64,000 nucleotides of DNA from Methylotenera versatilis 301 (lineage in GTDB: Bacteria > Pseudomonadota > Gammaproteobacteria > Burkholderiales > Methylophilaceae): assembly GCF_000093025.1 (NCBI RefSeq), contig NC_014207.1, positions 1,116,001 to 1,180,000 of the forward strand. Direction: 5' to 3'. Both the position numbers and the translations under genes were made by a program. Numbering within the stretch: position 1 is the first letter of the stretch; each line of letters begins with the position of its first letter. This document shows, piece after piece, positions 59,021 to 64,000 of the stretch. The notes under the pieces are model-generated. The model worked only from the letters and a program-made list of their open reading frames with translations. It ran no database searches and was not told the DNA's origin.

Positions 59021-60151
59021 CTAGTCCCAGCTCAAAGCACCGCCAGTTTGGTACTCAGTCACGCGGGTTTCAAAAAAGTTTTTCTCCTTTTTAAGATCCA
59101 TCATTTCACTCATCCATGGGAATGGATTTGTGGCGCCGGGATACAACACATCTAAGCCAATTTGCGTGCAACGGCGGTTTGCAATAAAGCGTAAATACTC
59201 TTTAAACATCGTTGCATTTAAGCCCAGTACACCTCTAGGCATGGTGGCTTCTGCATATTGATATTCTAACTCTACGCCTTTTTGCATCAACGTTTTGATT
59301 TCTTCACGAAACTCAGCCGTCCACAAGTGTGGATTTTCAAGTTTAATCGTGTTAATCACATCAATACCAAAATTGCAGTGCATGGATTCATCACGCAAAA
59401 TGTATTGATATTGCTCTGCGGCACCTTGCATTTTATTTTGACGGCCGAGGGCTAAAATTTGCACAAAACCTACATAGAAAAACAGCCCTTCCATAATGCA
59501 GGCAAACACAATTAATGATCGTAGTAATTCTTGGTCGGCCTCTGCAGTGCCTGTTTTAAAAGCTGGGTCAGTTAAGGTGTTAATAAATGGAATCAAAAAA
59601 TCATCTTTAGCTTTAATGCTAGGAATTTCCTGATAAGCATTAAACACTTCGCTTTCATCTAGCCCTAAACTTTCTACAATGTACTGATAAGCATGCGTGT
59701 GAATCGCCTCTTCAAAGCCTTGGCGTAGCAAGTATTGACGACATTCTGGCGCGGTAATATGGCGGTAGGTACCAAGTACGATATTATTCGCAGCGAGTGA
59801 GTCTGCAGTGGTGAAGAAGCCTAAATTACGCTTCACGATTAAACGCTCGTCATCACTCAGCGCGGTGCTATCTTTCCACTGTGCAATGTCGCGGCTCATG
59901 CTCACTTCTTGCGGCATCCAATGGTTTGCGCAACCTGCTAAGTATTTATCCCATGCCCAGTGATATTTAAAAGGCACTAGTTGATTCACGTCGGTTTGAC
60001 CGTTAATCATGCGTTTATCAGAAGCATTTACGCGACCTGAGTGCGATGGTTGATTGGCTGCTGCAGTGGCTGATTTAATTTCAGCTGCTGGTACTGCTGC
60101 TAATTGCGGCTTAACTGGCTCTACGATAATTTCATCTTCAAATGAAAGCAT
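59021..60151 (-). CDS. nrdB: Ribonucleotide reductase, class I, small subunit
   Basis: 376 residues. Diiron/radical residues can be placed: Asp117 ([10 protein letters not shown]), Glu148 and His151 (FEEAIHTH), and Tyr155 in the radical position, then Glu in MEGLFFY and [11 protein letters not shown]. The overall sequence ([44 protein letters not shown]) is closest to the chlamydial-type subgroup, but it keeps Asp and Tyr where Chlamydia has Glu and Phe, so it should form a tyrosyl radical. It has a Pro/Ala-rich ~45-residue N-terminal extension. It is downstream of nrdA and shares its riboswitch if co-transcribed. Confidence 0.95.
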
Positions 60152-60301: not shown

Positions 60302-63118
60302 TTATTGGCAAGATTCGCACTCGGGGTTATCAATCGAACACACCTTTGGTAAGTATTCTTTGGGCGCTTCTTCTAAGCCAGCCGAAACTGCATTCAACTC
60401 ACCGCCTGAACCTGTCGATTTCTCCGCCGCGGTAGCACCCATTGAACGTAAGTAGTAAGTGGTTTTTAAGCCGCGTTGCCATGCTAGCAGGTAGGTATCA
60501 TTGAGTTTTTTTCCTGATGGCACTGCAAAATATAGATTGAGCGATTGCGCTTGGTCTATCCATTTTTGGCGACGCGCTGCAGCTTCAATTAACCAAGTCG
60601 GGTCAACATCAAATGCCGTTGCGTATAACTGTTTTAAATCAGCCGGTACGCGGTCGATTTTTTGTAATGAGCCATCAAAGTATTTTAAATCAGACACCAT
60701 GACCGCATCCCAAAGCCCACGTGCTTTCAAATCAATCACTAGTTGCTCATTCACAATGGTGAACTCGCCGGATAGATTAGATTTCACATATAGATTTTGA
60801 TATTCAGGTTCAATACTCGCAGACACGCCAACAATGTTCGAAATGGTTGCCGTTGGTGCAATCGCTACGCAGTTTGAGTTGCGCATGCCAACTTTTTGAA
60901 TACGGTTGCGCAAAGCATCCCAATCTAGCGTTTTGCTTCTATCGACTTCAACATTTCCACCACGCTCATTGAGTAATAAATCAAGCGTATCGAGTGGCAG
61001 AATACCTTGATCCCACAAGCTGCCTTTAAAGCTTGAGTAGGCGGCACGCTCTTCTGCCAATACTGTTGAAGCGTAATAGGCGTTGTAGCAGACCATTTCC
61101 ATTGCGCGGTCGGCAAACTCTACGGCTTCCATGCTGGCGTAAGGAATGCGCATGGCGTGTAAACAATTTTGAAAGCCCATGATGCCCATGCCGACTGGTC
61201 TGTGACGAGTATTCGCATTACGTGCTTTGCCAACTGGGTAAAAGTTAATATCCACCACGTTGTCTAACATGCGCATACCGATTTTAATCGTCGCTTGCAG
61301 TTTGTCGTTATCTAGCACCAACTTGCCGTTAACTTCTGCTAAGTGCTGCAATAAGTTCACAGAACCTAAGTTACACACGGCAATTTCAGTCTCTGATGTA
61401 TTCAGCGTAATTTCTGTACACAGATTTGAGCTATGTACCACGCCCACATGTTGCTGTGGCGAACGAATATTGCATGGGTCTTTAAACGTAATCCAAGGAT
61501 GGCCCGTTTCAAACAGCATGGAAAGCATCTTGCGCCACATTTGTAGGGCAGGGATTTTCTTAAATAGTTTGATTTCACCATTTTCGGCACGGCGCTCATA
61601 TTCAACATAAGCGGTTTCAAAGGCTTTACCATATTTGTCGTGCAAATCAGGTACATCTGATGGTGAAAATAATGTCCAATCACCGGCTTCAGTCACGCGA
61701 CGCATGAATAAATCTGGAATCCAATGCGCTGTATTCATGTCATGCGTGCGACGACGGTCATCACCTGTGTTCTTGCGTAAGTCTAAAAACTCTTCAATAT
61801 CTAAATGCCAAGTTTCTAAATAACCACACACAGCGCCTTTGCGTTTGCCGCCTTGGTTCACTGCTACAGCCGTATCGTTCACTACTTTTAAGAATGGAAT
61901 AACGCCTTGGCTCTTGCCGTTTGTACCTTTGATGCGCGCACCGAGTGAACGCACTGGCGTCCAGTCATTACCCAAACCGCCTGCGTATTTTTGCAGCATG
62001 GCATTTTCTTTAATGCCTTGGTAAATTCCATCTAAATCATCGCTGACGGTTGTTAAGTAGCAAGAGGAGAGCTGAGAGTGCAGGGTGCCAGCATTAAATA
62101 AAGTTGGCGTAGAACTCATAAAGTCAAAGCTAGAAAGTACGTTATAAAACTCAATTGCACGGCTTTCGCGGTCTATTTCGTTAATCGCCAAGCCCATCGC
62201 TACGCGCATGAAGAAAATCTGCGGTAGCTCAATACGGCGCTCTTCAATATGCAAAAAGTAGCGGTCATACAAAGTTTGGATGCCTAAATAGCCAAATTGG
62301 AAATCACGGTCCTTGTTTAGCGCTGCCGCTAGTTTAGTTAAATCAAATTGCGCTAAACGTGAATCTAATAGTTCGGCATTGATCCCCATTTTGATATAAC
62401 GCGGAAAATACTCTGCGTAATGCTCATCCATTTGCGCATGGCTCACTCGCTCGCCTAGCACTTCTGCGCGTACCAAATCTAGCTGTAAACGCGCTGTTAC
62501 ATAATTGTAGGCGGGCTCAGTTTCAATCAGGCTACGGGCAGACAAAATCAGTGCTTTATACACTTCTGTAAATGGAATGCCATCGTACAAATCGCGCACG
62601 GCTTGCTCAACCACTATGCTTGGATTCACTACATCACCCAAGTTTAGGCAGGCTTCACCGACCATCTCATTCAGTTGTTTAATATCGAGTGGAATCAATT
62701 TTCCATCAATATTCACATTAAGCGTGTGGCTAAGTTCTGTAGTCGGATGGCTCGCTTTTTCAGCAGCACGTTCAGCATTGCGTTTTTCACGGTAAAGCAC
62801 ATAAGCACGTGCTACATCGTGGTTGCCGTTGCGCATCAGAGCCAACTCTACTTGGTCTTGAATATCTTCAATATGGATTGAGCCGCCAGCAGGTAGGCGA
62901 CGCATCAGCGCATTATTGACTAATTGGCTTAATGTAGCGACTTGGTCGCGCACACGTTGCGAAGCGCCACTTTGGTTACCTTCAACCGCTAAAAATGCTT
63001 TGGTGATGGCGATAGAAATTTTATCGAGTGTAAATTGAACTGCAGCGCCATTGCGACGAATGACTTGCAATGTGGGTAAAGATAAGTCTGTGTTAACAGA
63101 AGGTCTGACATCATCCAT
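60302..63118 (-). CDS. nrdA: Ribonucleotide reductase, class I, large subunit
   Basis: 938 residues. The N-terminal ATP-cone (VIRRNGAAVQFTLDKISIAI) is followed by a second ATP-cone-like region (~residues 118-200, LIPLDIKQLNEMVGEACLNL, ending RLQLD), so it has a tandem regulatory module as in Pseudomonas-type NrdA. Catalytic residues: Cys in QLSSCYLTT, the N-x-C-x-E motif in SNLCTEI, and Cys in AVCNLGSVNL. The C-terminal CESC pair reloads the active site. I chose the ATG at 63118 with AGGGA upstream; upstream in-frame codons lie in the riboswitch leader. Confidence 0.96.
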   Translation of the reverse strand: MDDVRPSVNTDLSLPTLQVIRRNGAAVQFTLDKISIAITKAFLAVEGNQSGASQRVRDQVATLSQLVNNALMRRLPAGGSIHIEDIQDQVELALMRNGNHDVARAYVLYREKRNAERAAEKASHPTTELSHTLNVNIDGKLIPLDIKQLNEMVGEACLNLGDVVNPSIVVEQAVRDLYDGIPFTEVYKALILSARSLIETEPAYNYVTARLQLDLVRAEVLGERVSHAQMDEHYAEYFPRYIKMGINAELLDSRLAQFDLTKLAAALNKDRDFQFGYLGIQTLYDRYFLHIEERRIELPQIFFMRVAMGLAINEIDRESRAIEFYNVLSSFDFMSSTPTLFNAGTLHSQLSSCYLTTVSDDLDGIYQGIKENAMLQKYAGGLGNDWTPVRSLGARIKGTNGKSQGVIPFLKVVNDTAVAVNQGGKRKGAVCGYLETWHLDIEEFLDLRKNTGDDRRRTHDMNTAHWIPDLFMRRVTEAGDWTLFSPSDVPDLHDKYGKAFETAYVEYERRAENGEIKLFKKIPALQMWRKMLSMLFETGHPWITFKDPCNIRSPQQHVGVVHSSNLCTEITLNTSETEIAVCNLGSVNLLQHLAEVNGKLVLDNDKLQATIKIGMRMLDNVVDINFYPVGKARNANTRHRPVGMGIMGFQNCLHAMRIPYASMEAVEFADRAMEMVCYNAYYASTVLAEERAAYSSFKGSLWDQGILPLDTLDLLLNERGGNVEVDRSKTLDWDALRNRIQKVGMRNSNCVAIAPTATISNIVGVSASIEPEYQNLYVKSNLSGEFTIVNEQLVIDLKARGLWDAVMVSDLKYFDGSLQKIDRVPADLKQLYATAFDVDPTWLIEAAARRQKWIDQAQSLNLYFAVPSGKKLNDTYLLAWQRGLKTTYYLRSMGATAAEKSTGSGGELNAVSAGLEEAPKEYLPKVCSIDNPECESCQ

Positions 63119-63198
63119 TTGGTTATTCCCTTTTTCAAAAAGGGCAGGTACGCTTTGCTCGCAACAATATAGTGCTAATTGCCTGAACAAAAACAGCA

Positions 63199-63226
63199 TG
63201 GCGGAATGACGCAAAACATCATTCCA
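63199..63226 (-). repeat. Hairpin in the nrdA leader
   Basis: GGAATGA / TCATTCC arms with a 9-base loop. On the reverse (coding) strand it is followed a few bases later by TGTTTTTG. It lies between the riboswitch and the nrdA start and could be part of the expression platform, but the T-run is weak. Confidence 0.4.
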
Positions 63227-63333
63227 TCTGCCGAGGACACCCCGCCTCAAACGTTATAAAAGTACTTTTGCGTTTGCTTTAGATTTTAAAATTGATGGTT
63301 TTAAACTCTAAAAGTAAGCACAAAAAATGTACA

Positions 63334-63516
63334 CGGCAGGTCTCCTGGCTCTCAGGTCATCGCTATTTGTTGGCCTTCCCAAATTGACAATATCCAATTC
63401 AGTGGCAAGTGCTTTTTAAACAAGCGTAACAAATAACTCGCTGATTACAGTTGCGGGGGCAGCTATGGCATAGATGTTTGAAAAGATGGTTCAAACACCG
63501 CACCGTATTCCCTTTT
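63334..63516 (-). promoter_or_regulatory. Cobalamin (AdoCbl) riboswitch of nrdAB
   Basis: Read on the reverse strand, the conserved blocks follow in order: AAAAGGGAA, then GGTG, TGAACC, GCCCCCGCAACTGTAATC, GCCACTG, GGGAAGG, ATGACCTGAGAGCC, and finally the B12 box AGCCAGGAGACCTGCC. Every core element of the class is present with normal spacing. It precedes nrdA by ~215 bases in the same orientation, so adenosylcobalamin should repress nrdAB. Confidence 0.95.
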
Positions 63517-63669
63517 ATCTTACATTTTGACTAAAACGTAAGAACCGTGTGACAACACTATAACGCAATATAATGGAATAATTCAACATAAAAACACTAT
63601 ATATTGATTATATTTTTTAATTTTGTTTTATGCGATTGTTTTATATGGAATTTTTATTTCATCCATTAC

Positions 63670-63697
63670 GTCATTCCCGCGAAGGCAGGAATGACGG
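63670..63697. repeat. Short palindromic repeat downstream of metE
   Basis: CGTCATTCC and GGAATGACG arms around CGCGAAGGCA. A GTCATTCCCGCGAAGGC-type dispersed repeat familiar from several proteobacterial genomes. It may also serve as a 3' end for metE. The coordinate may be off by one base. Confidence 0.7.
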
Positions 63698-63741: not shown

Positions 63742-64000
63742 TTATGCCAACTGCTCGCGCAAGCTTTTAGCCACTGTCACCATGTTTTCTAATGCAGTTT
63801 TAGTTTCTGGCCAGCCACGCGTTTTTAAGCCGCAATCTGGATTAATCCATAAACGTTCTATAGGCACTACATCGAAGGCTCGTTTCATGAGTTTTTCCAT
63901 CGCCTCAACACTAGGTACACGCGGTGAGTGAATATCATAAACACCCGGACCAATGTCATTAGGGTATGAAAATTCGCCAAATGCGTCTAATAGCTCCATG
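63742..64000 (-). CDS. metE: B12-independent methionine synthase, C-terminal part (partial)
   Basis: The 3' end of a gene continuing beyond the window. The ~85 visible residues are the end of Met[20 protein letters not shown], then [18 protein letters not shown], including the zinc-ligand Cys in [11 protein letters not shown]. It transfers the methyl group of 5-methyl-tetrahydropteroyltri-glutamate to homocysteine without cobalamin. Confidence 0.95.

Follow-up and report, generated by a model that had tools for sequence, protein, structure and literature searches.

A cobalamin riboswitch upstream of the class Ia ribonucleotide reductase genes nrdAB in Methylotenera versatilis and other Methylophilaceae

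The nrdAB locus and its cobalamin aptamer

The stretch of DNA analysed here (64,000 nucleotides from Methylotenera versatilis 301, hereafter the window) carries on its reverse strand the genes for a ribonucleotide reductase (RNR). The gene nrdA (60302..63118) codes for a class Ia large subunit of 938 aa with an ATP cone (PRK07207, 1689 bits), in which the Pfam domains ATP-cone (PF03477, one detected), Ribonuc_red_lgN (PF00317) and Ribonuc_red_lgC (PF02867) can be found. It is followed by nrdB (59021..60151), coding for a class I small subunit of 376 aa (PRK07209, 686 bits; PF00268), and the enzyme encoded behind the leader described in the following is a class I RNR.

Upstream of nrdA, on the same strand, the Rfam model RF00174 (Cobalamin) matches the DNA from 63564 to 63318 with 104 bits and an E-value of 5.9e-25, compared to a gathering cut-off of 31.5 bits. 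The match comprises positions 1-189 of the 189 positions of the model and is the sole Rfam match above the gathering threshold in the entire window. The element is a cobalamin riboswitch with a complete aptamer of the AdoCbl type (63318..63564), the 3' edge of which is separated by 200 nt from the ATG of nrdA at 63118. Amongst the conserved blocks of the aptamer are the L5 loop segment CUGCCCCCGCAACUG (63448..63462) and the B12 box AGCCAGGAGACCUGCC (63335..63350). A cobalamin riboswitch on the reverse strand upstream of nrdA had been read from the letters alone in an earlier note on this DNA, which proposed a covariance-model search as a check, and this identification is borne out. The interval given for it, 63334-63516, lies inside the aptamer and covers its core, but is too short: the 5' arms, which extend to 63564, fall outside it, as do the 3' strand of P1, which reaches 63318, and the whole expression platform (63317-63119).

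Promoter region and the neighbouring metE gene

In front of the aptamer there are two NrdR-box-like sites on the reverse strand, box 1 (AATCAATATATAGTGT, 63594..63609) with 14 of 16 positions in agreement with the consensus and box 2 (TTCCATTATATTGCGT, 63563..63578), 31 nt from box 1, with 11 of 16. Most leaders of the family comparison described below have such sites upstream of the aptamer, at distances of 45-49 nt and about 14-17 nt, and the tandem arrangement scores above shuffled sequence at P 0.05 in 49 of 52 leaders. Since the promoter has two such boxes spaced by about 31 nt and nrdR is present in the source genome (192 bits), nrdAB is a predicted member of the NrdR regulon. A candidate sigma-70 promoter, TTGAAT-N18-TATAGT (63557..63586, reverse strand), overlaps box 2, but it is a weak one, as sigma-70-like sites are about as frequent in the region as expected by chance.

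Further upstream, the window contains the 3' end of metE (63742..64000; 762 aa in full, TIGR01371 with 1077 bits), which is encoded on the same strand as nrdA and has its stop at 63742, leaving 178 nt to the aptamer. A MetR-like LysR gene (PRK15421 with 229 bits, below the cut-off of that model) is oriented divergently to metE, an arrangement consistent with the metE-metR divergon described for beta- and gammaproteobacteria (PMC4239095). An inverted repeat, CGTCATTCCTGCCTTCGCGGGAATGACG, is located between metE and the riboswitch (63670-63695), and the spacer between nrdA and nrdB shows a related repeat of the GTCATTC type (about 60260-60180).

In at least 28 of 52 other loci with a riboswitch and nrdA, the adjoining gene on the upstream side is likewise metE in the same orientation, a lower bound obtained from regions of 3 kb, and both of the nrdA types distinguished below have it as a neighbour. 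Such conservation would be expected if the riboswitch also controlled metE and both formed a single B12-sparing operon. However, metE lies upstream and not downstream of the riboswitch and diverges from the MetR-like gene, and no cobalamin riboswitch precedes it, the sole other one in the genome being located at btuB. Given this gene order, the divergent orientation of the MetR-like gene and the lack of a third riboswitch, metE was rejected as a target of the nrdA riboswitch, and a joint operon is very unlikely. The earlier note had pointed to a neighbouring metE as strengthening a B12-sparing theme: the neighbour is real and on the same strand, but the theme is one of conserved neighbourhood and not of co-regulation by the nrdA riboswitch.

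Expression platform

Following P1 in the leader is the P13/L13 hairpin GAGGCGGGGUGUCCUC (63233..63248, reverse strand), the loop of which, GCGGGG, is complementary to CCCCGC in L5 as required for an L5-L13 kissing loop. This motif was found with at most three substitutions in all 53 riboswitch-bearing nrdA leaders of the family, and as it lies outside the Rfam model, its presence is independent of the search by which the loci were found.

Between P13 and nrdA, folding suggests a terminator-like hairpin with a T tract (63186..63230, reverse strand). The hairpin from 63230 to 63194 has a predicted stability of -13.3 kcal/mol as compared to -6.4 +/- 2.2 for shuffled sequences (P 0.004) and is directly followed by TTTTTG. 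A simple consensus scan for terminators called none in the window, and it misses this hairpin owing to a mismatch and a bulge in the stem; folding supports a terminator here only moderately. A second hairpin, CCCUUUUUGAAAAAGGG (63128..63144, reverse strand), pairs a Shine-Dalgarno-like GGG, the core of the Shine-Dalgarno (SD) sequence forming its 3' arm.

Among the other leaders, mostly those of the source genus and close relatives show a clear terminator-like element, and in about a quarter of the leaders none was found. By comparison, 51 of 52 leaders have the SD core paired as a 3' arm immediately ahead of the start codon, regardless of the type of nrdA, with stem sequences differing between groups of leaders and with a stability above that of shuffled sequences (P 0.05) in only 20 of the 52 individually. 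It is conceivable from this distribution, and from the outcome of the consensus scan, that regulation is mainly translational by sequestration of the SD and that the terminator-like hairpin is incidental. Yet the hairpin in the window is more stable than its shuffled counterparts and has the T-rich tract next to it, and for nrdAB of Propionibacterium acnes premature termination has been described (PMC3848588), so that we regard a mainly translational control as quite possible, though somewhat short of probable. Regulation could act at termination, at translation or at both. The best target of L13 is the segment preceding the SD in many leaders and the 3' arm of the terminator in others, and in most single leaders the pairing of L13 with C-rich downstream segments is no better than in shuffled leaders.

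B12-related genes in the source genome

The source genome, a single contig of 3.06 Mb in which the window occupies positions 1116001-1180000, contains the B12-dependent class II RNR that the earlier note had predicted from the presence of the riboswitch: a genome search located nrdJ at 2978026-2979942(-) with 567 bits to NrdJ_Z, and it is followed by a separate NrdJb-like gene with a TSCPD domain, indicating a split class II enzyme. The search for metH proposed in the same note was also positive (1663 bits), and the genome has both metH and metE. Besides the one in the nrdA leader there is only one further cobalamin riboswitch, which precedes a gene for a btuB-like TonB receptor; btuB is followed by cobO/btuR, a cobB-like gene, a Peripla_BP_2 (btuF-like) gene and cobU, btuB, cobO, cobB and cobU forming an operon for salvage. 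No corrin-ring methyltransferases were detected in the genome, in which the only two TP_methylase genes look, by their size, like CysG- and RsmI-type genes. Because a corrin-ring methylase set was not detected, the bacterium probably scavenges B12.

Conservation of the leader in the family

For the comparison, 150 genomes of the same family, which is very probably the Methylophilaceae, were searched with the NrdA of the window as query. This yielded 32 close orthologs with 77-100% identity, the window's own included, and 22 class I enzymes with only 28-30% identity, which belong to the E. coli type (PRK09103 together with PRK09101) as shown for one tested member. NrdJ_Z matches above the cut-off were found in 137 of the 150 genomes. 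A riboswitch is located directly upstream of 52 of the 53 other class I nrdA genes, or 53 of 54 including the window, and the genomes of all 53 switch-bearing genes hold nrdJ. In one of these (G064, 74% complete) it is present only as a fragment at a contig start. The expectation that the switch implies nrdJ thus holds throughout the family, and the lone nrdA without a switch resides in a genome without nrdJ.

Two class Ia enzymes with about 30% identity are accordingly encoded in the same place behind the same leader, which comprises tandem NrdR-box-like sites, the aptamer, the almost invariant kissing-loop hairpin and the hairpin pairing the SD. This suggests that the enzyme was replaced under a retained leader, in either direction.

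Single genomes show further peculiarities at their RNR genes. A member of the source genus (G149; L048, L049) has two copies of nrdA, each with its own cobalamin riboswitch. In G010 the nrdA riboswitch measures 411 nt (L091 485-895) because its aptamer contains an insertion bounded by inverted ends, and it still scores 61 bits. G120 has, beside its own shorter nrdJ and its nrdA, a third RNR gene coding for 1018 aa (L096, C1:1576067-1577749), which with 605 bits scores highest against NrdJ_Z in the whole survey. In G014 there was no match to NrdJa or nrdA while nrdJb is present, and as the adjoining DNA is masked, this genome is uninformative. The last ~36-39 codons of its nrdJb are duplicated ~31 kb from the full gene (G014:C10; L187 1112-1219; L188 897-1604), as an integrated element using the 3' end of the gene as attachment site would leave them.

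Loss of the switch in a relative without NrdJ

The one family nrdA without a riboswitch, which is of the E. coli type, is that of G043, a genome of 99% completeness in which no match to NrdJa or NrdJb was found. NrdJb is present in all five congeners tested, all of which are listed with NrdJ. The leader of G043 can be aligned to the congeneric leaders over the NrdR boxes, which are kept, over the very start of the aptamer and over the L13 region, whereas the core of the aptamer is deleted or scrambled and L13 reads GAGGCAAGGTGTCTTT instead of GAGGCGGGGTGTCCTC; no Cobalamin match was obtained in this leader even at an E-value of 10. The genome retains metH and an intact riboswitch before btuB. 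The metE gene next to its nrdA is cut to the N-terminal half, with residues 8-369 of 762 aligning (L078 1093-2193, C16). As metE is truncated and metH intact, methionine synthesis in G043 is probably B12-dependent, while the synthesis of DNA precursors probably no longer is.

A decay of the switch is what a choice between isozymes predicts for G043, because a working switch would, in the presence of B12, shut off the only RNR found. Judged by the sequences, the switch is not maintained after loss of the B12-dependent isozyme in this one natural case. The co-loss of nrdJ and the switch is a single event and not a statistical series, and as nrdJa and nrdJb are adjacent, a gap in the assembly of this 99% complete genome could mimic the loss. 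It also bears on the idea that the element is merely a leftover of a past locus for B12 synthesis or transport that no longer controls nrdAB. All blocks of the aptamer as well as L13 are intact in 53 leaders with two types of nrdA, and the riboswitch decayed only where nrdJ is gone, which makes a functionless remnant highly implausible.

Distribution outside the family

A further 80 nrdA loci from named genomes were checked for the conserved riboswitch blocks, which were found upstream of nrdA in five, namely in Methylobacillus flagellatus (same family), a Methylomicrobium-titled MAG, Methylovulum miyakonense, Azospira oryzae and an uncultured beta proteobacterium. Of the named genomes in the collections, that of Methylobacillus flagellatus is the closest relative, with 79% NrdA identity. 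The two Methylococcales-titled genomes (Methylovulum miyakonense and the Methylomicrobium MAG; L107, L108) have an nrdA 77-79% identical to that of the window, the same riboswitch blocks and a short nrdJ frame (720-738 aa) as in the window's family. A transfer between methylotrophs is possible.

Outside the family, nrdJ was present in all four riboswitch-bearing nrdA genomes tested, but also in about half of 46 other genomes without an nrdA switch. A strict rule by which the joint presence of nrdJ and nrdAB entails a riboswitch was therefore rejected. The switch implies nrdJ but not the reverse, and since nrdJ often occurs outside the family without a riboswitch on nrdA, the two need not be coupled.

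Proposed mechanism and relation to known systems

The aptamer, the gene order, nrdJ, metH, the nrdR gene with the NrdR-like boxes, the conservation of the leader and its co-loss with nrdJ all support the interpretation that a cobalamin riboswitch in the 5' leader of nrdAB lets the cell choose its RNR by B12 supply, an interpretation we hold with high confidence. For the underlying mechanism we infer the binding of adenosylcobalamin, the direction of the response, the dominance of termination or SD occlusion, and the partner of L13 in the absence of B12. With adenosylcobalamin bound, L5 would pair with L13 in a kissing loop and the downstream leader would fold into the terminator-like hairpin and the hairpin holding the SD. 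Expression of nrdAB would fall, and the B12-dependent NrdJ would supply the deoxynucleotides. Without B12, L13 would be free to pair with C-rich segments (the 3' arm of the terminator or the arm preceding the SD), and the O2- and iron-dependent NrdAB would be made. Through the upstream NrdR boxes the promoter may respond to nucleotide status as well.

As to the evolution of the leader, we consider it rather probable that the tandem NrdR boxes, B12 aptamer, L13 hairpin and SD hairpin constitute a conserved module beside metE behind which the class Ia RNR has been exchanged, with the riboswitch blocks also found on the 77-79% identical nrdA genes of the Methylococcales-titled genomes of methanotrophs. 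This module decays with the loss of nrdJ, and selection on it would thus come from the choice between NrdJ and NrdAB itself.

Borovok et al. are said to have described the B12 riboswitch of Streptomyces coelicolor nrdABS in 2006. That nrdABS responds to B12 in Streptomyces is established, going by the citation in PMC4991794, and P. acnes nrdAB has a nrd-box at the promoter and a cobalamin riboswitch in the 5' UTR (PMC3848588). The earlier note, too, had named Streptomyces as an example of such control of class I nrdAB. In S. coelicolor, too, a cobalamin riboswitch precedes the class Ia RNR operon and the genome encodes an AdoCbl-dependent NrdJ. However, this is an actinobacterium with other neighbouring genes, no adjoining metE being mentioned in PMC4991794, whereas in the proteobacterial family of the window the same leader precedes two distinct class Ia RNRs. 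P. acnes likewise has nrdJ in its genome, but a single nrd-box, in contrast to the tandem boxes of the window, and a riboswitch on nrdDG as well (PMC3848588). In delta-proteobacteria (Desulfovibrio vulgaris, Desulfuromonas), nrdDG is under B12 elements, again a B12-independent RNR in a genome with nrdJ, but here an oxygen-sensitive class III enzyme and not one of class Ia (PMC545781). The same logic applies to the SAM-Cbl riboswitch of metE in Priestia megaterium, where the B12-independent isozyme is repressed by cobalamin and the B12-dependent MetH works, albeit for a pair of methionine synthases, with a tandem SAM riboswitch and in a Gram-positive species (PMC9600662).

Within the family, OM43 and other streamlined Methylophilaceae share the cobalamin riboswitch before btuB, but for the OM43 host strain H5P1 only this one has been reported (PMC9004378), which fits the genomes with one riboswitch and one RNR seen in the family survey. 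A report of the nrdAB case in Methylophilaceae was not found in a literature search that missed most subscription papers and is thus a weak negative. With B12 control of nrdAB already known in Streptomyces and Propionibacterium, the Methylophilaceae case is a further member with an unusually clear evolutionary control.

This natural control is provided by G043, the lone relative without the B12-dependent enzyme, in which the switch is dead. In a whole family of bacteria from the environment, which would be the methylotrophic Methylophilaceae and whose members seemingly are B12 scavengers, B12 supply very probably decides which class of RNR is used. This links the exchange of B12 in microbial communities to DNA synthesis, and the cost of misregulation becomes testable.
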